64,000 nucleotides of DNA from Alitta virens (Eukaryota; Annelida; Polychaeta; Phyllodocida; Nereididae): positions 17,860,058 through 17,924,057 of the forward strand of contig OW028575.1 in the NCBI GenBank assembly GCA_932294295.1, given 5' to 3'. The notes under the pieces were generated by a model. It searched no databases. It was given only the letters and a program-made list of their open reading frames with translations, and was not told the DNA's origin. The translations under genes and the position numbers were made by a program. This document shows positions 1 through 61,774 of the stretch, in pieces. Position 1 is the stretch's first letter. Each line of letters begins with the position of its first letter.

Positions 1-852
1 ATTGCCCTGCAATTATTTTCTAAAGGATACTATCTAACACAAATAGATAATTTCTAGAAATTAAGGAGATTTCTACAATCCCTGTTGTCATGGTGATAGA
101 ATTAATTAGCCTATTTGTGGTTCTCTTTATTGCACATTAACACATAAGACCAACAAGAACACATGATTTGGTGAGTGGATACATTTGCCACATTTATTGA
201 TTGGCATAAAGGAATGTTACATGCTTGTGTTTGTGGACACCCTTAGTGGGGACACATTAATACAAGTAATGTTTGTGGATACCCTTAATGGGGACACATT
301 AAATAATAATTGGTAATACATATAGCAAGAGTAAACAAGGTTATATGTGACATTTTGAGAATTTTTAAGGAAGGAAAATTTGAATTTTAAGGGGACGGTG
401 GGAGGGAGTAAAAAGAAGCGAATGACCATGCAGTAGCATGGGGGAGATCCTTATATACCTCGGACAACTGGATTAGCCCAGCTGGCAGTCCCTGGTGGAG
501 GCTGCAAACGTAACATGACCCTGGTTGCCATCAAGGTATTGCCTGGAATGAATGTTGCCTTACCCAAGATGGTGTTAACCCCATTTACACATTAGTAAAC
601 ATCATTTATATGTACTGTTAACTATTTTGCATGAAAATGTGTATTGAATCATTGCTCAATGGTCTGTATAGTTTAAAGTTAATACCTGCAGCTATAACTT
701 TAAATATTAAGCACAGAATTAATAAGGACAGTACACATAGATATGTCTGCCTACAGTGACTCAATATCTTGTCAAAGCCATGATGTTATTTCAGTTATTC
801 ATGCATGATTATAATTAATCCTAGTACGGATGGCACCATAGTCTGCCTGATG
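1..852. other. Intergenic DNA, no gene seen
   Basis: AT-rich sequence without a convincing coding region. It holds a short two-unit tandem repeat at 229-312 and a somewhat more GC-rich patch around 420-580. In that patch a short open stretch ends in CATCAAGGTATTG, which could be a weak exon-donor boundary but has no supporting evidence. Confidence 0.5.
229..312. repeat. 42-bp tandem duplication
   Basis: Two adjacent imperfect copies, each beginning GTTTGTGGAYACCCTTARTG, start at 229 and 271, a period of 42 bp. The copies differ at a handful of positions, so the duplication is not recent. No function is suggested. Confidence 0.8.
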
Positions 853-3800
853 GTTGCCATGGTAACCATACAATGTTGTTGGAACAATAAGATGCCTGAA
901 TAATTGACTTTCTAAGGAGAAATGTTACAACAACTGAGTTCCGAGCCAAAGAAACTTTAAGTTTGCATGCCAAATGTATGATTCTTTAGACCAGGTAAAG
1001 TCAATCATCAATACCAATTAAGAACTGACATTCTTAATATAAGCATATTCACAACAATGACAGCTAGAAGTACACAAGAAATGATCTTGTGAAGAAATTA
1101 CCAGGGCAACAAAAAGGTCCAATCGTTAACTAGAGACTTTTAACCTAGACGCATGCATTGTGGTGCCATTTTAAATTATGGGAGGTTGCTTTCTCAAATG
1201 TCAACCGCCTATATAGGCCTAATTATGAAAAGTGTCATGCAAGCCAACATATATTACCTTATATTGGATATGAGATAATATGTGAAATATGGGATAAGAC
1301 AATTGTCTAATTGCATAATTTATGTTACTTTTATTGAGAATGAAAAAAAAATTTGGAATATTTTTGCAACCTTAATTTTTGGAAATGAATTTGCTATCAG
1401 CATTTGAAAGCTTGACTAAATATCCTGATCGAGCTGAAAGGAATCCTAGATTTTTTAAAGTGGTTGCTAAGTAACTAAGCTGTTGAAAAATTACCATGGC
1501 AACCAAGATGACCATTTGTTCATCTATTCTGTCGTCAGATTTATTTTTCTGTCGTCAGATTTATTTTTAGGAATGATCGCCCAAATCAGAAAGTACCATA
1601 ATTGTGACAATGTTGGTGTGTTAAGAAAATCTGTTTTCATGACCTCGTATAGCAGCATTGGCTTGTCAAGTTAATTTTCATAACATTGATCGAAATGATA
1701 TTTAGCAGAAACAAGGCTCCTTATAGAATATATTTGTGTTTTTCCTGAATGGAGCAAGAACAATTTGATAGCACTTCATGGCTTCACTTAAAATCCTAGC
1801 AGGCTGGTGCATGCAATTGATAGATTTTAAGTTTGGTTACTAAGTAAAAGAGCTTTAGTGGAAATTACCATGGCAACCAAGGGGTTATTTTAGCCATACA
1901 TAAATATTGCGCTATCTTTCTTATTAATACAAAATGCGCAAGAAACGTCAGCTAAAATAAAAAAAAACTTTCAATTAAAATAGGTAATATGAGTCATGCA
2001 TCACTTGTATCTGATATTTACGATCAAAATCATCTAAGATATGCCCTTATATGGCAAATACTACCTTAATTTGCATAACTATGCATTTATTTTTTTATTA
2101 AGGATGCAAATTTAATTTTATTGGGCGTTATTGCAGCCTATGTTTATTAGATTTAAGTATAAAAGCATATGAAGGCTCAACTTAAAAAATCCTACAATAA
2201 ATCAGATAAAAAGGGTGTTACTAGCTGTTAGAAAAGTTACCATGGCAACCAAGGAGTTATATTATCCATACCTAAACTTCCTGTTGGTTGTTCTTTCTAT
2301 ATATACAAGAATGATTTGTGCAAATAAAAACAGTCCATAATTACAGATATATATTCTATAGCTTAATTAATGATTCCTTGGCCATATATCAATTTTGCTT
2401 CCAAACATGTAGATTCTCAGGGAGACATTGCAATCATGTTCTATGCCACTAGTTGTAATTTCCAAAAATATGCTGCCATGGCAACTGTACATCTCTATTT
2501 TCTTGGGACATGTGCAATGTCATGGGATACATTGCAAAAAAAATGGTTTCAACCCTTTGTTTGGAAATGAGACCAGTATGTCCATAGCTAATGATGGCAG
2601 GGCAATTGCATTAACATGGCATGGGCTTAATAAGAAGCACCAGGGCACTTATTTCCATGGCATCCAGTTAAGATCGCCATTTCAAATCACCACATGTGTA
2701 CTTCAAGATTTACAGTCGTTTTCTGTATGTGAAAATCAATTTTTTCCCGCAAAGATTGTGGAGTACATTGATATTACCTTTTCACAAACACAGGTAACAA
2801 AAAAAAGGCCAATTAATTCTGTTTCCATGGCAATACATTGAAGCTGATCAACATAAGATGCAGAGATTTGAAAATATTGGCAAAAGTCATGTGTTACCTG
2901 TTACTGATAAAATTTGAACAATAACAATGTACACAAATTTATGTTACCATATCAACCTATTTATCACTTCATAAATTGGTGCAATTAAAATTGGTATTAT
3001 TTCTAATTTTATTCGACAGGAAACTAGCTCCACTTTCACCCTTAGCCTTTGCAGTATAATGAACTTTCCAAAGTCTATTTGCTACAATTTGGTAACTTCC
3101 AACATGTTGGTTACCACGGCAACAAAGGAAAACTGGGAAGTGAAAATTTTTGGCATATGAATGATTGTTTCATCCTGTAAAAACGTAAAGATGTGCACAT
3201 TATATTAATAAAATTATTAAAGAAATAGTTGTGTATTTGGTTTTATCTGCAAAAGCAGAATAGTTGCTATGGAAAAACAAATAGCAAAAACCTGACCCAC
3301 CTTTTTAACTCTACACCACCCGGATTTTGAAGGTTCCAGGTCTTGGTCTCTGGTTCCCTGAGTGAAGAAACACTCAGGTTGGGTCTGGCGAATTCTGTGA
3401 TCTCCTTATTTGAGATGGGAACGAGTCAGGGTACATGAGGTCTAAAAGGTGACCTGCAAGTTAACCAGCTAAAACCATATCCCCTTGTACTAACTTTGCT
3501 CTATTTTAGGGCTTTGTTAACAATAAAAACGATTACCATGGTAACCAAGTTAGTTTTTTTCTATGGTATAAGAAAAACGGGGTTTTCTTCTGTAATTTTG
3601 TGTTTTCTTATCACAATTAAAAAGTATCTGCCCCATTGATCATTTTGATACCAGGAAATAATTCCCAGTAAAATACCCAGAGTTTGCAAAAAATATGGTT
3701 ACCAGGGCAATGGTTTTAATGCCAAAATTGTCATTTTTATGGCTAAAGCTATCAAAGTGTTTTTTTATTTTCATGGCAACTTTTGGAAGGATACTCCATC

Positions 3801-4049
3801 ATCATAATAGTGATTTCCCCCTTGAAGTACTTGCCAATGAAAGACATGAAAATGTATTACAAGGAAATAAATCTATAACTGTTGCCTTGGCAGTGTTCTT
3901 GAACCTAATTTGTTTGCTGTAACTCTGGTGGTATTTTTGCAGAAAGAATATACAATGTATTACACATGTGTCAGATGGACATGTTTATGGTCTGACATTA
4001 TTTGAATTACATGGATAATCTAATTATTCATTTTTGTTGCCATAGAAAC
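853..4049. promoter_or_regulatory. Dense array of RFX-type X-box palindromes
   Basis: About 13 matches to GTTRCCATGGYAAC with no more than two to three mismatches lie at 853, 1097, 1490, 1864, 2236, 2472, 2821, 2943, 3110, 3532, 3698, 3881 and 4036. Weaker ones lie near 2651, 3263 and 3767. The copies at 853 (GTTGCCATGGTAAC) and 2236 (GTTACCATGGCAAC) are exact. This is the inverted-repeat site known for RFX winged-helix factors, which drive ciliary genes in animals. The rest of the window has only a few scattered matches (for example 34475, 47757 and 53229). The array ends about 450 bp before the start codon of the cysteine-rich gene at 4499, so it may be its promoter or first-intron enhancer. 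Part of the array comes from local tandem duplication, so a purely repeat-driven origin remains possible. Confidence 0.6.
1118..2260. repeat. Diverged ~372-bp tandem repeat carrying the X-box
   Basis: Three X-box copies sit at 1490, 1864 and 2236, spacings of 374 and 372 bp. Their surroundings are also alike. Each is preceded by an AATCCTA motif, then a GTTACTA- or GTTGCTAAG-like string, then a GTTGAAAA/TTAGAAAA stretch, and is followed by CCAAGG or CCAAGA. AT-rich blocks containing TTGCATAA recur at similar offsets. The units are heavily diverged while the palindrome is nearly unchanged. Confidence 0.6.
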
Positions 4050-4315
4050 CATTGTCTAGATTTCAAATTGATTTTGATCATTTGAGGGTTATAGTGACAT
4101 GGCAGGGCAGCAGAAGGCTCATTTTGGAGATTGACCCTTCACAGACATACAGCAGAAATGTCAACTTTCTGGAACTGAACAAAATATATTTGCATTTATT
4201 TTAAATTGTGTCTGTCTGAACAAGCATCAAATTTTAAAGTACCCGAGATGACTTCACTTGTTGAGAATCAATACTGATCAGGACATCGTTTTGGTTTCTC
4301 TCTATACTGTTGCAT

Positions 4316-4350: not shown

Positions 4351-4468
4351 ATGCACATACATAATGGGCAAGTGGTCATATATTTTGAATTGTGGTGTAT
4401 ATTGTAAATGTTTGCACTAATCATATTTATTTATAAACTGAAAGATTTGTATGGTGTTTATTTTTCAG

Positions 4469-4498: not shown

Positions 4499-4966
4499 AT
4501 GGCCGATTGCGGTGACTGTGGTGGATGTGATTGTGGTGGATGTGACTGTGGTGGATGTGACTGTGGTGGATGTGACTGTGGTGGATGTGACTGTGGTGCT
4601 TGCGGTGGCTGCGAATGTGGTGATTGCGGTGGCTGTGAAAGTTGTAGTTACTGTGACAGTTGTGTCTGCGGCACTTGTAACTGTAATGGCTGTTGCGAGT
4701 GTGAAAATTGCGAAGCTTGCCTCCAAAGTGCCTGTTGCAATTGTTCCTGTTGTTCATGTTGGGACAGCCTCTGTGGATGGTGCGACGACAGTTCTTCCTC
4801 CTGTAATTACGGTTGTATTCTTTGTGATGATGCACCTCCGGTTGTAACAGCTGGACCAGCACCAGTTACAAACCAACCATTTAGTCTTGTCAATGTCCAG
4901 GGAATTTTTCAAGAGCCAATCGTACCTGCACCAATATTCAATGAAGACAAAACCTGGCCAGTATAG
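4499..4966 (+). CDS. Cysteine-rich DCGGC-repeat protein
   Basis: The protein has 155 residues and begins MADCGDCGGC. Residues 1-109 contain 39 cysteines. First come five DCGGC pentapeptides plus a DCGAC, encoded by near-identical 15-nt units. Less regular CxC, CC and CxxC clusters follow, mixed with Asp, Glu, Asn and Ser. Residues 110-155 have no cysteine and are rich in Pro and Val, ending NEDKTWPV. There is no signal peptide or membrane segment. I chose the ATG at 4499 because a splice acceptor lies just before it, and the in-frame ATG at 4451 precedes that acceptor. I do not recognise an orthologue. The composition resembles metal-binding or disulfide-linked structural proteins (metallothionein-like, keratin-associated, or sperm-tail Cys-Gly repeat proteins), but only by composition. 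The X-box cluster upstream hints at ciliated-cell or sperm expression; this is an inference. Confidence 0.8.
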   Translation: MADCGDCGGCDCGGCDCGGCDCGGCDCGGCDCGACGGCECGDCGGCESCSYCDSCVCGTCNCNGCCECENCEACLQSACCNCSCCSCWDSLCGWCDDSSSSCNYGCILCDDAPPVVTAGPAPVTNQPFSLVNVQGIFQEPIVPAPIFNEDKTWPV

Positions 4967-5162
4967 CTGTCCAAGAATACTCTAGGTTAACAAACGAAAA
5001 AATATCAACTCTATGTAATTACGATTTATTACTGAATTTTCATTTATGTTATATTTCATATGTAATCATCATGTGCAATTATTTCTACATTTAATGATGA
5101 TGGATTGCATTTACAAATATTACTCAGTTATCATTATCTTTTTTTGTAACTATACATATTTA

Positions 5163-5387: not shown

Positions 5388-6440
5388 TCATGGCATTCTC
5401 AAAATGCATGAAACCACACCATTTAAATTCTTGACAAAATATTTGTGAATTCTATGATGTATAACAGTATGCATAGGTACACTATCACATATGAAAGGCA
5501 ATATATTATTGTGGGTTCTATAAGGCAGCTTCCAAGTTCTACGTGTAGATTTACACCACATGATATTTACAGTCCTCATGTCAGCACTTCTAAAGTCACA
5601 AAAATATGATCCGTACAAAGAATAACAATACTTTTCAACAAGCTTCTGTTTAAAATAAGAGTTTACACATGAGAAGTCAGCCAGAGCTGAGTTAAATTTA
5701 CCAATGAAGTCTCTCGTAACATAGTCCACAAGAGGATCATTCCTATTACAGTTGATTTGATGTCCCAAGTAATTAATACTATCGACACAAGGCACAGCTT
5801 GTTGGAAAATCTAGGCTTTGATGACACATAAATGAGTTTTCTTTTGCTTCCATTAAACTTTATACTATACACTACTGCCAACTCCTCTTCTATCTCTACA
5901 TGCTTATGTTAAGCCTGGACAGTAGGAGCTAATAAAATCACATCATCAGCATAAGCAAAACAACCTGTACAGCAATCACCAACATGACAGCCAACCTTGG
6001 CTTTTTGCAGCCTCTCGCTAACTCCATCGGTATAACAACTGAACATGTCGGGGAAAGGACTTCGCCTTGCTAAACCCCATTGGTTACAGAAACGAAATCT
6101 GAGGATCTACCATTAAAGCTCACAAGAAGCTGCTTACGATTGACATACATACTATGCAGTATGACTGAATTGTGGTTGCAATAAAATATTAAACAATTTA
6201 GAGAATTCAGTTCTGTCAAAGGCCTTATTAGCCTACACACTGATAACATAGTATTCTTAAGTTTCATGGACAACTGCAGCTACAGTACCAGCAGACACCA
6301 CCTCTTTAAAATTGAATTGAAGGTCTGAGCTTTGCAAATACTGTCCCTCCTTGTACATAACTAAATCAATGATCTTACAAGTTACATTTTGTAGACATAT
6401 CCCTGTGAAATTGTCTCAATTACTAGTACACAACCGCTCC
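5388..6440 (-). pseudogene. Non-LTR retrotransposon reverse transcriptase fragment
   Basis: Read on the minus strand in several frames, this is the C-terminal half of a LINE ORF2. In order it shows a finger/palm remnant (DLQFNFKE near 6330), a region matching the stretch before motif B, NGV*QGEVLSP with a stop replacing the usual charged residue (near 6060), FAYADDVILL with the catalytic YADD (near 5930), FNGSKRKLIYVSS (near 5840), and YLGHQINCN plus the C-terminal 'connection' region (5790-5390). Frameshifts and stops make it inactive. The style is that of CR1/L2-like elements. No endonuclease domain remains. The C-terminal 135-residue stretch (5388-5795) is still open. Confidence 0.88.
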
Positions 6441-27331: not shown

Positions 27332-28570
27332 ATGAATGGAAACGATTCTACGTTCCCATTCAGCCTGCTGCTGGAGGACATTTTTCCATTCAACTTCAGT
27401 GACCAGACGAACTTCAGCGACTTCTTTAGCGCCTTTGATATGGATGGATCTGAATCGTATTTTAAATCAGCCATTCACTACTTGGACCTCTACGTCGTCC
27501 CCCTGGTGGCTCTCGTGGGAGTTGTGGGCAACGTCCTTTCATTCACTGTCTTTGTCTGCACCTTCATGCGTCGTCTGTCATCGAGCATCTACTTGGCAGC
27601 ACTGGCCTGTGCGGATTTAGGATTCTTAATCTGTGTTCTTGTATCCTGGGCTCGACATACTGGGGTAGACCTGTATGTCCAAGAAGGATGGTGTCAGACA
27701 TTCACTTACCTGACGTACGTCAGCAGTTTCCTCAGTGTCTGGTATGTGGTGTCATTCACGACAGAACGCTACATCGCTGTCCACTTTCCCTTAAGAAGGC
27801 AAGGGTTGTGTACTACAAAACGAGCCAAGATCATTGTCATCACCCTGGCTGTCTTTTCTGGTATCATCTACAGTTTTGGCATCTGGACTAGTGGGGTGAT
27901 GCAAATACCTGGGCCGCATTTAATATGCGGTCCTCTCCCCCAGTATTCTACCCTGGTGGACGTAGCTCATAATTTAGACACTATTATTACGTTACTGTTG
28001 CCTTTTATAGCTATATTTGTTATGAACGTTCGGATAGCTTTCAAAGTGGCTAAATTCTACAAGGAGCGGAAGCACATGGCCCTCAGGTCAAATTTCTCTT
28101 CGCGCAGGCGCAGTGACAGCACCACCGGCTGTCAGATCCACTACCACGTCAGTGTCAATAGGTCTGCTGTTTACACACGGACGCAGGTTCGAGTCACCAA
28201 AATGCTCTTGACTGTTTCATCCATATTTTTGTTACTCAACTTGCCTCATCATTCATCCCGATTTTACCTCCTCATCATGAAATTAACGGATGAACATTAT
28301 GTCCCCACACACAACTACATAGTCTGGGAGAAACTATTTCGCACTCTTTATTATTTCCAATTTTCCATCAACCTGTTCCTGTACAGCGCCTTTGGAAAGA
28401 ACTTCCGGCGAGCGCTCTGCCATCTGGTGAGACGCGTCAAACATAGCGTTGGGGAATTACTATCGCGTAGCTATAACTGGAGCAGCCGCAAGACCACAGT
28501 TCGTTCTACGCGAGCGGAAATAACTCTTAGGGATTACCGACATATATCTGTGGAAAGCCGTTATGTGTGA
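27332..28570 (+). CDS. Class A (rhodopsin-like) peptide-type GPCR, intronless
   Basis: A 412-residue seven-helix plasma-membrane receptor. The ATG at 27332 is the first after an in-frame stop at 27287. The N-terminus (1-50) has three N-glycosylation sites (Asn4, Asn21, Asn27). TM1 lies near 52-76 with GN (66-67) and TM2 near 86-106 with LACAD (91-95). TM3 lies near 122-144, with Cys121 and ERY (145-147, for DRY) at its ends. TM4 is near 166-188, and Cys199 is the likely disulfide partner in loop 2. TM5 is near 212-236 and TM6 near 288-313, with NLP (303-305) where CWxP is usual. TM7 is near 335-353, with NLFLY (347-351) for NPxxY, then a basic helix 8 and a Ser/Thr/Arg-rich tail. The NLP..R and NLFLY variants recall invertebrate FMRFamide- and other neuropeptide-receptor-like orphans. 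Ligand and exact family are not resolved. Its coding sequence is less AT-biased than the flanks. Confidence 0.93.
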   Translation: MNGNDSTFPFSLLLEDIFPFNFSDQTNFSDFFSAFDMDGSESYFKSAIHYLDLYVVPLVALVGVVGNVLSFTVFVCTFMRRLSSSIYLAALACADLGFLICVLVSWARHTGVDLYVQEGWCQTFTYLTYVSSFLSVWYVVSFTTERYIAVHFPLRRQGLCTTKRAKIIVITLAVFSGIIYSFGIWTSGVMQIPGPHLICGPLPQYSTLVDVAHNLDTIITLLLPFIAIFVMNVRIAFKVAKFYKERKHMALRSNFSSRRRSDSTTGCQIHYHVSVNRSAVYTRTQVRVTKMLLTVSSIFLLLNLPHHSSRFYLLIMKLTDEHYVPTHNYIVWEKLFRTLYYFQFSINLFLYSAFGKNFRRALCHLVRRVKHSVGELLSRSYNWSSRKTTVRSTRAEITLRDYRHISVESRYV

Positions 28571-32779: not shown

Positions 32780-34890
32780 TGCCTAGACTGTTACGTGATT
32801 CCTGAATCACATGAGATGTATTACATCTGACTTCTTGGCTCATTCTTACAATTAAACGAATAGGAATTGCAATTAATTCATTGTAGTTCCGTGGCTTGAA
32901 TTTGTCAGGATCGATATCCTTGGTGTCAAGTAATAGGGTTGCAACTAATTAGTAATAAAACCGAAAACAAGCAACTTTATTTTTTAGCATTTTGTTACCC
33001 AATTAAGTAGAAGTGATATTACCCTCATGTATGAAAATGGCATCAAAGTATAATTTTAGTAAATCACACCTGCGGCCTCTCATGCACATTGCATTATCAT
33101 ATTATGAAATTAAGGATATAAAAACAACTGGAATTACCGTAAATGCACTGATCTTGGATATATTAGATGATATTCACATGCCATATTGGTGAGCATTTTC
33201 TTTCAGTTGATCTTTGACATTTAATTGAATGACGATCACATACTATATTTGCGTAGCAGTTTCTTTAAGTTGATCAAAAAGTGCATTTATACAGTACTTC
33301 TTGTCCAGACAGTCATTTTGATATTACATAAACTGCAGCATTAATTCATATGCTAGTTAAAAGATATAGCTTATTAGAGAGGAGGGGTTTGTAAAAAATA
33401 ACTTTAGACATCAAGGGCCAGAAATTAAAGCACAATTCCGAAGGAACCTATATTTACAAAAAGACATGTACACAAACAGGAGGGAAGAAAGAAGAATCCC
33501 AAGATAGTTCGGGTGGGAAAAAGTGCAGTATAGTGGATCCAGATTTAGCGAGTCCCATTGCAAGGCCTATGACGTCAAATGCGTGGTTTTCATATTCATG
33601 GAAATCACTTCTGAAAAAGACAGCTGAAAAACACATGCAGTCACTATGTTTAGTAAGTTGACTTCAGAAACCCTGAAAGTACGAGAGAAATGATTGCATA
33701 CATCCTTAGTTTATGCAGTTATTCTATTCTACCTGCATTTAAAACATTTTTCAAGCGTTGAATGAGCTCAGTATTAACACAACCGATCTGCAAGACAATT
33801 AACAATATATAATTAATGTCATGAAACATAGGAGTACAAAACATAAATCATTTTTAAATAAAAAGCGTAAATTAGCATAAATTATAAAACCATTTAAAAA
33901 AAAATAGCATGTAAAAACATGTAAATAAAATGGGACATGCGATCAGTATTTTGATAAAAAAAGTCAATCTATGTTTAGTTATTTACATATGTTGTTCACT
34001 CTGTGAGCTTAACCAAAGTTCATTTATCACTCCTGTTTCCAAAATATTTCATATACAATGTAGGTATTCATGGCTCAGAAATAATAGTTATAATAAATTA
34101 ATGACTGCGCAGCCTTTTAGTTTGACTGTATTTTTTGTATTTGAGACATATATCAATTCTAAGCTGAAATTCATGTAGGCTTCTAGAGAAAATGGTCAAA
34201 TAAGTCCAACTGGGTCAACTAGAAATGTGAACTTGTAAGCCTAATTTTTTTTTTTCCTCTGGGCAGCAAATAGTGTTAACCCACGTGAGACTCTATCATC
34301 TCATCGTTTTATCTGCCAATGGTTACGGATTACACCAATGGAACACCTTTGTGACAACATGGATGTACCATGTGGTAAATGTGTAACATGGTGTCAACTC
34401 CAAGCCTTACCATTGCATCATATGCATTAAATAGATTTTTTTTTTCTATTTTAGGAGGGCAGTTTTCAATGGACGTTGCTATGGTAACACTTAATGTAGT
34501 GTCCATTGTTGCAGCAAAAACAATAGCGCATTCATGGAAGCAGGTAGCACGGGTGAACATTTAGCGCAGGAGCCATCTTGGCATTTTTGCCTAATTGACC
34601 TCATTTTGGTTACGTCATATATTATGATATCATTTCTTCTCCATTGTTCCATTGTTCCATTGTTGCAAGATATGAGTGTTCATACTAACCTATTATCAGT
34701 CATGAAATGGCTACTTATTAACATCACTGTGATGACAATTATATACGAATTGATTGGCCCCTATGAAAAGACCCTGACCTCAATAACATTTTGGAAGAAG
34801 TTTCTGCACAGTCCATGAAATGAGCAAGATTTCTTAATTTAATTTTTTGTCTAAATTTTGTATGGACTATTTTGCCAGGGCATGCACTTG
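32780..34890. other. Intergenic DNA, no gene seen
   Basis: No defended gene. An isolated X-box-like GTTGCTATGGTAAC lies at 34475-34488. A CATTGTTC decanucleotide is repeated three times near 34640. Confidence 0.4.
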
Positions 34891-47660: not shown

Positions 47661-47667
47661 TTTCTGA

Positions 47668-48190
47668 ACACCCTGTAGAGTATACAAACGAAACATAAAG
47701 CAAATCCAGTCACCCGAACAGAATTAGAGCATTTTACCCATCATGGGGTAATAACCCCATGGCAACCATGAAATTCTAAGAACACAATGGTAACACCTTG
47801 TAGAGTATACAAACCAATTTCAGTAAGATCCGATTACCCCAACAGAAGTTACAGCATTTTACCCCATAATGGGGTAATTATCCCATGGCAACTATGAAAG
47901 TGTAAAAATATGATAGTGTAACACCCTGTATATACAAACCAAATTCAGCAAAGATCCGATCAACCAAATAAAAGTTATATTATCACAATTTAATTACTCT
48001 CATGGGGTAATTACCCCAAGGAAATCATTACCCCATGGTAACAACATAAGTTTCAGGACCCTAAACCGGTTTCACCCTGCAGATCATATGAACAAAGTTG
48101 GGCAAATATCTGATCACCCAAACATTAGTTATAGCATTTTACCCCATCATAGGGTAATTACCCCAATGCAACTATAAAAGTTTCAGCACT
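47668..48190. repeat. Four-unit ~125-bp tandem repeat with an ATGGGGTAA palindrome
   Basis: Units start at about 47668, 47793, 47921 and 48072. Each begins CACCCTGTA or a variant, then TATACAAAC, then GATCCGATYACCC, then ACAGAAGTTA. Next comes the palindromic core TTACCCCAT-ATGGGGTAA, then CCCCATGGCAAC or CCCCATGGTAAC and CTATGAAAGT. Spacings are 125, 128 and 151 bp. The core is the best-conserved part of every unit. Confidence 0.85.
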
Positions 48191-52269: not shown

Positions 52270-53705
52270 TTCCCCTTGGAATTGAATATTCAAGAATTGT
52301 TATGTTTGAAAAAGTAATGATAAACTGCATGCATATAATTAATTTGCGCTTGTTAATTGTAACTTACTATGGAGACACTGTCAGGCATATTTTTCCGGAA
52401 GGCATATTTTTCCGGAAGTGTATATATACATACTCTGCATGCAGAATGTATCTGGCAATTTGCATTATGATTAATAATTAATTAATTATTGTAAGAAATC
52501 CAATGTTGATAGAGTCTGTGATCATATCTGGACTATGGAAATATAAATATTTAACCATCATAGCAATGTGTGATGATGAGGAATGATTCTGATTTCTGGT
52601 TCTGCCAATGAATATTTGTCAGATAAAGATGACTAATGCTTGATCGACTAACCGGACACAGTGGAGCTGACTAGGGTCTGTTTGAAGACAGGCACAACAA
52701 ATTATCTAAGAACATTTAATCAAGAAGACTGATAAATGTACAGCATTTCTCAGGCTTCGCCTGTTACAGTATTAATAAGGTACGTATTTATGAGGTGAAA
52801 AATTGGGTAAAAATTTGATGTGAGATGTTGAAATTTGAAATTGTTCAGTTGTCCAAAATATGGCCAAATTGGGCTATAAGTGATGCACTTATGAAATTTG
52901 GCGCAATGATAAACTTCACTTGCAGATAATTTTTAGATGTGGCCTTGATTTCAGCCAATAACACCGTTATTTTGCCGGTTATATGGCAACCACTTTAAAA
53001 ATCTAAAACAAATCACATTTTTGATCTTATCTCTTATAATTTTCTGCTGTAAAGTGCCTGTGATACAGTGACAACCATGTACTCTTTGCTTTAAAGCAAA
53101 AGTAATGTTAATAATACCTCATCTACAATAAGGAATGTAAGTTGGATATATATTGGAATTTACTGTACTTCAGATGTTTTAATTAGTTAACACTTAATAC
53201 ATAGAAAAATACCTCATTTGAATCCTCAGTTACCATGGCAACAGGAATCTTGTCGTTTATAATGAACATTGCTATCCCAGGAATATTGCCAAAAAAACGG
53301 GTTTTTAGCTATTTTCAGCTTGAAATGTGCTAATAGAAATATTTTCATATTAGATACCCTGGAGTTCTAGTGTTTACTTATTTGGCATATGTGGGAGGAA
53401 TTAGAAGTTATTATATTGGATTGCAAGAACATTTGCTTTTTATTAACATTGGGTGGTTATTTTGGCAAAAGCAAAATATACCTCACAGTAAATTTCACAG
53501 GCTGAAATACTAATTTTGTATGGTTTTACCAAGGAATACGCAACAAATTTAAATAAACTATCCGCCAATTTAAATATGTGAAACATTCTCTACCGAATAA
53601 ATACATTCTAAGTGACTGGCATGCATACAGTAACTGCTGAGACATTGAAACATAACTGTACCTAGAGCAGCATAGACTGCAGTAAATGGTTATTTTTGTT
53701 ATATT
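52270..53705. other. Intergenic DNA, no gene seen
   Basis: AT-rich sequence. A perfect X-box-like GTTACCATGGCAAC stands alone at 53229-53242. Confidence 0.45.
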
Positions 53706-60646: not shown

Positions 60647-61774
60647 AAGGGCCTATCTCACATAGACGAGTGACAATGCCGAGTGATGCCGAGTGCTTAA
60701 TAAATTAGGCAGTCGGGAATACACGGCCCTGCACGCCGACCACTCTGGAAAGACTCGTAAATACACGGCAATACTCGTAGAACGATCGTAGAGTTTTAAA
60801 CATGTTTAAAACTTTTAAGAATTGTCGCCGTGCAAAATTGCTCTGATATTGCTCGAGATTTAAACGGGATTAACTCGCCGTGCACTCTGGGTGTACACTT
60901 GGTCACTCTGGGTGTACACTTGGTTACTCTGGGTGTACACTTGGTTACTCTGGGTGTACACTTGATCAGATGAATTGCTGTGTGGACGTGATTTCCTCGC
61001 CGAGTGGTCGGCGTGTGAAGGAGGCGAGCAATTGGCGAGCGATCTGCGAGTGATCGGCGAGTGATTGGCGAGCGATCTGCGAGCGATCGGCGAGTGATTG
61101 GCTTTAAGCCACTATCTCACATAGCCGAGTGACGATGCAGAGTAATGACGATCGCTGGAAAGCAATCAATCGGCTTCACTCTTGGTCATTTGATGACTAG
61201 AAAAAGCAAGTCAGCAACGTCTCGCCGATCGCTCGCAGATCACTCGCCGATCACTCCCCGATCGCTCGCCGATCACTCGCCGATCACTCGCAGATCGCTC
61301 GCCGATCACTCGCAGATCGCTCGCCGATCGCTTGTCTTCTTCACACTCCCCGATCGCTCGCTGATCACTCGCCGATCACTCGCAGATCGCTCGCCAATCA
61401 CTCGCCGATCACTCGCAGATCGCTCGCCGATCGCTCGTCTTCTTCACACGCCAACCACTCGGCGAGGAAATCACGTCCACACAGCAATCCATCTGACCAA
61501 GTGTACTCCCAGAGTGACCAAGTGTACTCCCAGTGTGATCAAGTGTACTCCCAGTGTGACCAAGTGTACTCTTTCAGAGCAAATTTGCTCGGCGACAATC
61601 TTAAAAAGTTTTAAACATGTTTAAAACTTTACGATCGTTCTACGAGTATTGCCGTGTATTTACGAGCTTTTCCAGTGTGGTCGGCGTGCAGAGCCGTGTA
61701 TTCCCGACTGCCTAATTTATTAAGCACTCGGCATCACTCGGCATTGTCACTCGGCTATGTGAGATAGGCCCTTA
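60647..61774. mobile_element. 1.1-kb fold-back element with mirrored minisatellites, TTAA-flanked
   Basis: TTAA precedes the left end (A)GGGCCTATCTCACATAG, and the mirrored right end CTATGTGAGATAGGCCC is followed by TTAA. Both arms, about 450 bp each, contain the same series in mirror order: a GCCGAGTG block, TTAATAAATTAGGCAGTCGG, CGTAAATACACGGC, TCGTAGAACGATCGTA and the palindrome GTTTTAAACATGTTTAAAAC. Then come four ~21-bp units (CACTCTGGGTGTACACTTGG at 60886-60964; the complement at 61494-61570), GTGTGGACGTGATTTCCTCG and an ~11-bp GCGAGCGATCG/GCGAGTGATCG array (61020-61100; the complement at 61221-61440). A third copy of the end (CTATCTCACATAGCCGAGTG, about 61114) sits in the middle in left-end orientation, so the structure may be two nested insertions. 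The long open frame at 61145-61624 is an artefact of the repeat array. Confidence 0.9.

Follow-up and report, generated by a model that had tools for sequence, protein, structure and literature searches.

An array of RFX-type X-boxes in the annelid Alitta virens is very probably a decayed copy of an interspersed inverted-repeat element

Why does one short stretch of an annelid genome hold so many copies of a palindrome resembling the X-box of RFX transcription factors? The window analyzed here, a 64,000-nucleotide stretch of the Alitta virens genome, carries such an array at positions 853 to 4049. A sequence-only reading had listed 13 sites there and had taken them for a promoter array of a cysteine-rich gene, with a satellite-like origin as the alternative. 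All 13 positions are correct. At ≤0, 1, 2, and 3 mismatches to GTTRCCATGGYAAC, the region contains 2, 7, 12, and 16 sites, whereas 1,000 dinucleotide shuffles of it gave means of 0, 0.004, 0.042, and 0.50 and maxima of 0, 1, 1, and 4; the comparison with shuffled sequence proposed in that reading thus bears out the density. The window beyond 4049 yielded 1, 2, 3, and 7 sites at the same thresholds, in agreement with the claim that the remaining 60 kb holds few. Two of its three sites at ≤2 mismatches (34475 and 53229) lie inside exon-like frames, called by eye, that encode ..VAMVT... The array also extends upstream of the window, with X-boxes at -943 and -237. The sites within the window, with no strand assigned, are as follows.

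853 to 866: X-box GTTGCCATGGTAAC, 0 mismatches to GTTRCCATGGYAAC
1097 to 1110: X-box, 2 mismatches
1463 to 1475: X-box with a 1-bp spacer, GTTGCTAAGTAAC; a one-mismatch relative lies at 1836
1490 to 1503: X-box, 1 mismatch
1864 to 1877: X-box, 1 mismatch
2236 to 2249: X-box, 0 mismatches in the window; the 6-sequence majority has 1
2472 to 2485: X-box, 1 mismatch in the window; the 6-sequence majority is a perfect GTTGCCATGGCAAC
2651 to 2664: eroded X-box, 3 mismatches in the window; the 10-sequence majority has 1
2821 to 2834: X-box straddling the end of module M2, 2 mismatches
2943 to 2956: X-box, 2 mismatches, likewise in the 19-sequence majority
3110 to 3123: X-box, 1 mismatch; the 21-sequence majority also has 1
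3263 to 3276: X-box, 3 mismatches in the window; the 21-sequence majority has 2
3532 to 3545: X-box of element B, 1 mismatch
3698 to 3711: eroded X-box of element B, 2 mismatches; perfect GTTACCATGGCAAC in 3 of 3 other copies
3881 to 3894: eroded X-box of element B, 3 mismatches; perfect GTTGCCATGGCAAC in copies L051 and L053
4036 to 4049: X-box, 2 mismatches

The motif is an X-box of the RFX type, as had been proposed. The consensus given in two published sources is GTNRCC N0-3 RGYAAC (PMC10530576, PMC3414849), and the array sites have the same palindrome and the same spacer. Among 1,260 palindromes with permuted half-sites, solely near relatives of the X-box motif gave more than 2 sites at ≤2 mismatches. 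When GTTRCY and RGYAAC half-sites were sought with ≤1 mismatch, a 2-bp spacer gave 11 sites (average of 60 shuffles, 0.05), a 1-bp spacer gave 2 (1463 and 1836, absent from the earlier list), and the remaining spacers gave 0. The strict form, with GTNRCC and RGYAAC 0 to 3 bp apart, has three exact matches in the array region versus four in the next 60 kb, and 10 of the 13 listed sites fail it. The loose fly consensus RYYNYY N1-3 RRNRAC fits 12 of the 13 sites in one orientation (2943 fails) and is found 16 times in the array region versus 71 times in the next 60 kb, where other 3.2-kb stretches hold at most 7. Substitutions relative to GTTGCCATGGCAAC fall at positions free to vary in the published RFX consensus in 16 of 28 cases (expected, 12 of 42 types; P = 0.0014), or in 14 of 24 (P = 0.002) once two duplicate sites are removed. 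Forkhead (Fox) motifs were not enriched around the X-boxes (0.63 per site versus 0.65 at randomly chosen positions nearby in the array region), and with the X-boxes masked, no other word in the region was strongly enriched for the number of words tested. No Rfam family or tRNA was found in the window.

Most of the array is repeated elsewhere. Of 674 candidates in its own 671-Mb genome, 40 were scored, and these yielded 73 matching pieces spread over 12 contigs. Grouped by eye, the pieces represent about 38 places beyond the array's own locus; both counts are lower bounds. The sequence-only reading had said that an interspersed repeat present at hundreds of loci would speak against it; the repeat is there, at tens of places, and copies at hundreds of places are likely. 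The array is very probably a decayed copy of an interspersed TIR element, here called element A, and pieces of other X-box repeats follow to its right, at 3430 to 4286. The parts, again with no strand assigned, are as follows.

1 to 3344: element A, in-window part of a long inverted-repeat transposon copy, delimited by genome matches that stop at 3344
1357 to 2345: module M1, three diverged ~372-bp tandem units with one X-box each, recognized by unit homology and dispersed copies
2374 to 2833: module M2 of element A; contains X-boxes 2472 and 2651; 10 sequences aligned
2833 to 3344: subterminal module M3 of element A; contains X-boxes 2943, 3110, and 3263; 23 sequences aligned
2590 to 3344: right inverted arm of element A, pairing upstream with window -1162 to about +17
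3430 to 4177: element B fragment (second X-box repeat), 73 to 79% identical to L051 (contig C9), L052 (C10), and L053 (C8)
4224 to 4286: short match to the L012/L013 X-box family, 81% over 58 bp to L012 and 76% over 63 bp to L013

The arms of element A pair in inverted orientation at 86% over 242 bp and 73% over 257 bp. The left end lies outside the window at coordinate -1214 (C3:17858841-17858857, TA included), and the terminal sequence reads 5'-TA followed by GTCCAGGAGCCAAGG. The right end of the window copy is missing past 3344, where many genome matches stop; the inverted upstream arm runs past this point, as do other copies, and 7 of 8 aligned copies reach a common end. Genome-wide, 80 ends were found at ≤1 mismatch (41 forward and 39 reverse), versus 0 for the control. 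Five pairs of ends face each other 0.7 to 6.3 kb apart, for example, C12:21320121+ with 21320825- and C3:58070648+ with 58074122-. Among the ends found by pattern, TA stands next to 6 of 8 in family A and to 2 of 2 for the L012/L013 family, and it may represent a target-site duplication. Foldback elements consist mostly of their arms, a form that the window copy of family A has only in part. The element with these long inverted arms encodes no recognized protein, and the longest frame in its in-window part, read from stop to stop, is 142 amino acids.

Could the array instead derive from a satellite, now decayed, whose ~170- or ~372-bp monomers carried a conserved box? Alpha satellite monomers, which carry a conserved CENP-B box, offer a model. 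The three ~372-bp units of M1, at 1490, 1864, and 2236, are mutually homologous on alignment (z scores of 7.6 to 7.9), so the tandem duplication that the sequence-only reading described is genuine. The nucleosome-sized spacing and its multiples would also suit a satellite, as would a weak likeness between the flanks of some nonadjacent sites (z up to 4.2 in 238 comparisons). However, neighboring X-boxes of M2 and M3 are absent from the 16 best flank pairs, and the copies are short, lie dispersed, and terminate at a fixed inverted end. Long head-to-tail arrays were not found: M1 has only three diverged units, Tandem Repeats Finder with periods up to 500 gave no long monomer array at M1, and the sampled sequences contained no long homogeneous single-monomer arrays. 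A satellite is therefore highly improbable. That earlier alternative was nearer the truth in its conserved palindrome, and the repeat that carries the palindrome is a transposon instead.

X-boxes in the elements are mostly 140 to 190 bp apart, or about double. Among intervals of ≤450 bp, those of 140 to 190 bp make up 35 of 57 in family A, 5 of 6 in element B, 9 of 17 in the L012 family, 3 of 4 in L011, and 1 of 7 in L010. Taken by itself, the window array shows no clear periodicity (at ≤2 mismatches, P = 0.51; at ≤3, P = 0.04 with a best period of 108), and a test on four arrays at ≤2 mismatches peaked at 204 bp rather than 170. Exact X-boxes 150 to 180 bp apart form 13 pairs, five of them element B-like by eye, versus 0 for the reversed pattern.

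Comparison of copies revealed modest excess conservation of the X-boxes, and in each of the three modules of element A the earlier claim that the sites are conserved above their surroundings held. X-box columns scored 0.903 versus 0.829 elsewhere in M1 (permutation P = 0.039; 6 sequences, the window's included), 0.924 versus 0.812 in M2 (X-boxes 2472 and 2651; P = 0.006; 10 sequences), and 0.925 versus 0.845 in M3 (P = 0.004; 23 sequences). Element B gave 0.915 versus 0.839 (4 sequences, no significance test), and L012 versus L013 showed almost no excess (0.944 versus 0.925). Across the older tandem units of M1, 13 of 14 site columns are invariant, versus 34% of ungapped flank columns. In a comparison of eight copies with the window, ignoring gaps gave P = 0.017, with 4 of 94 slid controls equally good, and counting gaps gave P = 0.0008, with 0 of 94. 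Certain other 14-bp windows match the X-boxes in conservation.

The same comparisons bear on the idea that selection at this locus maintained the sites for RFX control of the adjacent gene.

4499 to 4966, plus strand: cysteine-rich protein gene, 155 amino acids with 39 Cys, outside the element; member of a local tandem family

Three relatives of the gene lie upstream. The protein has no Pfam match, and a protein-database search returned no homologues (0 scored among 48 candidates). A host array would fit the dense X-boxes upstream of a gene with TATAAA at 4432 (located by eye), the palindrome conserved in three tandem units, and site 2236, which is better in the window than in the family majority. 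It is at odds with the finding that the sequence is an interspersed repeat and with 15 other array loci (two overlapping, most with 1.5 kb of flank; the scan left out L035 to L056) that have no cysteine-rich gene beside them. Sites 2472, 2651, and 3263 are worse in the window than in the family majority, and 3698 and 3881 fall below the element B copies. Of the site positions at which the window differs from eight single copies, 29 are better in the window and 23 are worse. The window copy is thus about as worn as other single copies, with no sign of special care. Functional X-boxes in the published work are typically single and near a transcription start site, whereas here 12 to 16 are spread over 3.2 kb within a transposon; pairs are known, and the significance of multiple X-boxes per target is called unclear (PMC4168999). 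The promoter array first proposed for the cysteine-rich gene does not survive these comparisons, and we regard host regulation as very unlikely.

Another possibility is that the elements' own transposase binds the X-boxes, which would then resemble RFX sites by coincidence or through an ancient shared fold. The sites are palindromic, multicopy, and present in both inverted arms. Moreover, the in-window part of the element lacks a long coding frame; therefore, a cis motif needed for mobility is expected to be conserved. Against this, the X-boxes occur throughout the element and are not limited to its ends, and their spacing of close to 170 bp differs from that of the dense subterminal repeats in Ac and CACTA elements. 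The motif is, in addition, the exact RFX consensus and is strongly overrepresented genome-wide, also away from the sampled arrays: the host genome contains 1,741 exact X-boxes versus 4 for the reversed control, and in 12 of 18 sampled neighborhoods an exact X-box has at most one other site at ≤2 mismatches within about 5 kb. These solitary X-boxes had no spanning match among the sampled sequences, although other repeats could still contain some; in the L018 neighborhood, a 68-bp piece of family A lies about 1.1 kb from the exact X-box. Because exact sites are abundant genome-wide and often solitary, the motif may also be a host regulatory word. We consider transposase binding sites unlikely, although a good deal less so than host regulation of the gene.

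The reading that we favor, and hold to be reasonably probable, is that the array is an interspersed DNA transposon that retained RFX X-boxes, with fragments of other X-box repeats at its right. As to why the sites were kept, we lean slightly toward binding by host RFX. We infer RFX binding, a chromatin effect, and a tissue as follows: in RFX-expressing cells, host RFX dimers would occupy the element X-boxes, one per nucleosome-sized interval, and bound RFX would maintain the element in an open state that lets it transpose, perhaps in the germ line. RFX DNA-binding-domain exons gave six matches at about five places in the host, one with a stop, and amplification of an RFX-domain gene along with the elements was rejected on this count.

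Element A is one of several X-box repeats. The second array family has at least 307 pieces (40 of 380 candidates scored), and its full copies are ~5-kb inverted repeats; the copy at C9:28230655-28235664, with a plus-strand match over its first 2.2 kb and a minus-strand match over the remainder, has the foldback form. A family A profile found no match in the L010 to L013 and L022 arrays; L033, a family A copy, does share a 42-bp piece with L022 at 81%, and L010 and L012 are 69% identical over 281 bp. A broader proposal, which we put forward tentatively and with less confidence than the favored reading, is that several foldback-like families with little or no detectable mutual internal similarity all keep an X-box per nucleosome-sized interval. 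RFX binding would then be a shared chromatin-opening or phasing device in germ cells that express RFX, and the families may have seeded a sizeable part of the 1,741 exact X-boxes.

Inverted-repeat DNA elements that are dispersed and mediate the action of a host transcription factor are already known, and element A resembles them. In the published account of those elements, the host factor is transposase related and co-option is reported for about a third of germline-specific promoters. The elements described here, by contrast, are several kilobases long, carry arrayed RFX X-boxes, and are known from sequence alone. Drosophila Foldback and Galileo share very long inverted repeats and internal repetition with them, a likeness of structure. 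The target-site length of Foldback and Galileo differs from the TA of the elements here, and we know of no X-boxes in them. Caenorhabditis Helitrons with heat shock elements reportedly carry few sites per copy. They likewise spread the sites of a conserved host factor, belong to a different transposon class, and had HSF-1 occupancy measured (PMC6927752). No description of X-box arrays in a transposon was recognized among titles and abstract openings in the open-licence literature.

Transposons that spread host-factor sites are known, and a multikilobase element with an X-box-array interior would be an unusual case. In such genomes, X-box density alone can mislead scans for target genes. The normal work of RFX in cilia and sperm is well known, and these elements offer a ready test of transposon use of RFX in the germ line.

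The sequence-only reading described about 13 copies of the 14-bp RFX-type palindrome (X-box) GTTRCCATGGYAAC between window positions 853 and 4049, and 13 of 13 were present where it placed them. With up to two mismatches allowed, this stretch contained 12 matches, compared with 3 in the following 60 kb. In 1,000 shuffles of the array stretch, the mean was 0.042 and the maximum was 1, and of 1,260 palindromes made by permutation as controls, none unrelated to the motif scored above 2. The spacer enriched among half-site pairs was 2 bp. These data establish that the array is real. The best X-boxes outside it (34475-34488 and 53229-53242) both lie in exon-like frames encoding VAMVT and are probably coding coincidences. 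A period-126 tandem repeat at 47667-48180 carries X-box-like sites with a spacer of 4 (ATTACCCCATGGTAAC and variants); its sequence appears distinct from that of the main array.

The strict RFX consensus, GTNRCC N0-3 RGYAAC as given in excerpts of two papers (PMC10530576, PMC3414849), was matched exactly at 3 array sites, and the loose fly form fit 12 of the 13 sites in one orientation. The loose form had 16 matches in the array versus no more than 7 in any other 3.2-kb stretch and 71 over the next 60 kb. Substitutions fell at positions that the strict consensus leaves free more often than expected (16 of 28; P = 0.0014). In the animal's own genome (671 Mb, 23 contigs), exact GTTRCCATGGYAAC occurred 1,741 times, versus 4 times for the reversed pattern. 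Eighteen exact-site neighborhoods were sampled on contig C1 in listing order, skipping two places about 10 kb from ones already taken. In 12 of the 18, the exact site had at most one other site of up to two mismatches within about 5 kb, and these 12 sites had no spanning match among the sequences fetched by then. The X-box therefore seems to be frequent in this genome beyond the arrays too, and the 12 exact sites are candidate host RFX sites. Five other neighborhoods held arrays (L010, L011, L012, L013, and L022). The sixth, L014, contained two close X-box pairs (4951-4979 and 6225-6253), each just 15 bp apart and within two copies of a duplicated stretch of about 230 bp.

The array had been read as RFX sites kept by selection upstream of a cysteine-rich gene. 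That explanation proved mostly wrong, since the array is an interspersed repeat: a genome search with window 853-4049 returned at least 73 matching pieces on 12 contigs. This count comes from 40 scored candidates of 674 found at first look and includes the query along with three pieces from the upstream arm of that copy. Grouped by eye, the remainder lie at about 38 other places; identities are 65 to 90% once the query and two short pieces (28 and 33 bases) are left out. The features concerned are as follows.

Features in and around the array (negative coordinates lie upstream of the window)
Window -1214: left end of the window's copy of family A, a probable inverted-repeat transposon
From window 3430: second X-box repeat (element B), known from contigs C8, C9, and C10
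After element B, at the right side of the array: scrap related to the L012/L013 family
L006:7844-8263: Cys-rich tandem family, same strand as the other members
L005:1604-1990: Cys-rich tandem family, same strand
L005:6842-7232: Cys-rich tandem family, same strand
Window 4499-4966: Cys-rich tandem family, same strand

Many family A matches stop at window 3344, including one in inverted orientation that lies upstream of the window. When eight copies were aligned across this point, the common sequence continued past it in the others, and in 7 of the 8 it stopped at one shared end, which reads GTCCAGGAGCCAAGG going inwards; the eighth, L033, diverges sooner. The right end of the window's copy is lost. 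A pattern search of the fetched loci located 8 ends, 6 of them preceded by TA, and the end plus TA, at up to one mismatch, occurred genome-wide 41 times forward and 39 times in reverse (control, 0). Five facing end pairs lie 0.7 to 6.3 kb apart. The inverted arms of the window copy are 86% identical over 242 bp and 73% identical over 257 bp.

The element architecture is best seen in a second family. A search with L013:3945-6952 returned at least 307 pieces (40 of 380 candidates scored), with identities of 75 to 98% among the matches listed, the query itself excluded. Copies of about 5 kb (for example, C9:28230655-28235664 and C7:8424233-8429109) consist of plus-strand and then minus-strand matches of the same sequence and are giant inverted repeats. 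The family's end, TA|GTCAGGGGGCCAGCC (two ends), resembles by eye that of family A. A profile search showed no relation between the family A interior and the L010-L013 and L022 arrays; L022 shared one 42-bp match with family A copy L033, and L010 was 69% identical to L012 over 281 bp.

The Cys-rich gene encodes 155 residues, 39 of them Cys, and has three relatives on the same strand within 20 kb upstream. We scanned 33 loci, 15 of which are array loci apart from that of the window (with an overlap between L031 and L034, and with flanks of about 1.5 kb at L026 to L034). Relatives were found only at L005 and L006, beside the window, and at none of the 15 other array loci; thus, the loci scanned give no indication that array and gene move together. 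The two other hits, at L018 and L020, were repeat-like frames at loci without an array. The L005:6842-7232 copy is split across two frames and has ..QPFSLVN.QGI.. in common with the window gene, and the L006 copy carries a PPxY-like tail at its end. Just downstream of the window gene, a minus-strand fragment (5388-6279) resembles, with a YADD motif noted by eye, the reverse transcriptase of a non-LTR retrotransposon; Pfam gave no match on 5388-5810. Elsewhere, at window 27335-28570, a single open frame encodes a rhodopsin-type receptor that shares 82% identity with an unnamed assembly protein. Among named proteins, it is closest to a partial one from Capitella teleta (56% identity across 64% of the query), which makes the animal a probable annelid. 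The stretch 61023-61571 is dense in short tandem repeats (periods 11, 21, and 33; some GATC-rich), and its long open frames are probably not genes.

X-box columns were more conserved between family A copies than the remaining columns in module M1 (0.903 versus 0.829, 6 sequences; P = 0.039), M2 (0.924 versus 0.812, 10 sequences; P = 0.006), and M3 (0.925 versus 0.845, 23 sequences; P = 0.004). All eight X-box windows scored were above the 75th percentile of their own module, but some other windows were equally conserved. When eight copies were compared with the window, P was 0.017 if gaps were ignored and 0.0008 if they were counted. Element B (four sequences) gave descriptive values of 0.915 versus 0.839, and L012 versus L013 showed nearly no X-box excess. 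The clearest case is an older duplication within M1, where 13 of 14 site columns are invariant, versus 34% of flank columns (P of about 1e-5, simple binomial). At sites 2472, 2651, and 3263, the window copy matches the motif less well than the family majority does, and at 2236 it matches better; its sites at 3698 and 3881 are poorer than those of the element B copies. Of the site positions at which it differs from eight single copies, 29 favor the window copy and 23 the others, so its overall wear is comparable with theirs. The constraint thus seems to have acted on the family during its active period and not on this locus in particular.

Intervals of up to 450 bp between neighboring sites were mostly 140 to 190 bp, with a second group at 320 to 380 bp. 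The 140-to-190-bp class accounted for 35 of 57 intervals at 24 family A loci, which are mutually related and so do not count as independent samples. For element B the share was 5 of 6, for the L012 family 9 of 17, for L011 3 of 4, and for L010 1 of 7. When four arrays were tested together for a period, P was 0.002 with two mismatches allowed (best period, 204) and 0.001 with three (best near 172), compared with 0.51 and 0.04, respectively, for the window array by itself. Genome-wide, 13 exact X-box pairs were 150 to 180 bp apart (reversed pattern, 0); by eye, five of these resemble element B, and one is within a family A locus.

A noncoding element would have little evident reason to keep a motif unless some factor acts on it in cis, and either host RFX proteins or a transposase could act on the X-boxes. 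Host RFX is the favored candidate for three reasons: the motif is identical to the host's own word, it occurs throughout the element and not at the ends alone, and its variation follows what RFX sites tolerate. RFX-domain exons occur at about five places in the host genome, and among these we found no amplified copy of the kind that would suggest a transposon-borne RFX protein. RFX2 is described in an excerpt of one study as a major regulator in mouse male germ cells (PMC4498915); by extension, an X-box-bearing element could be open there, where transposition is inherited. The closest precedents are Caenorhabditis transposons that spread host-factor sites. The transposon explanation that replaces the first one is more interesting than an ordinary repeat.
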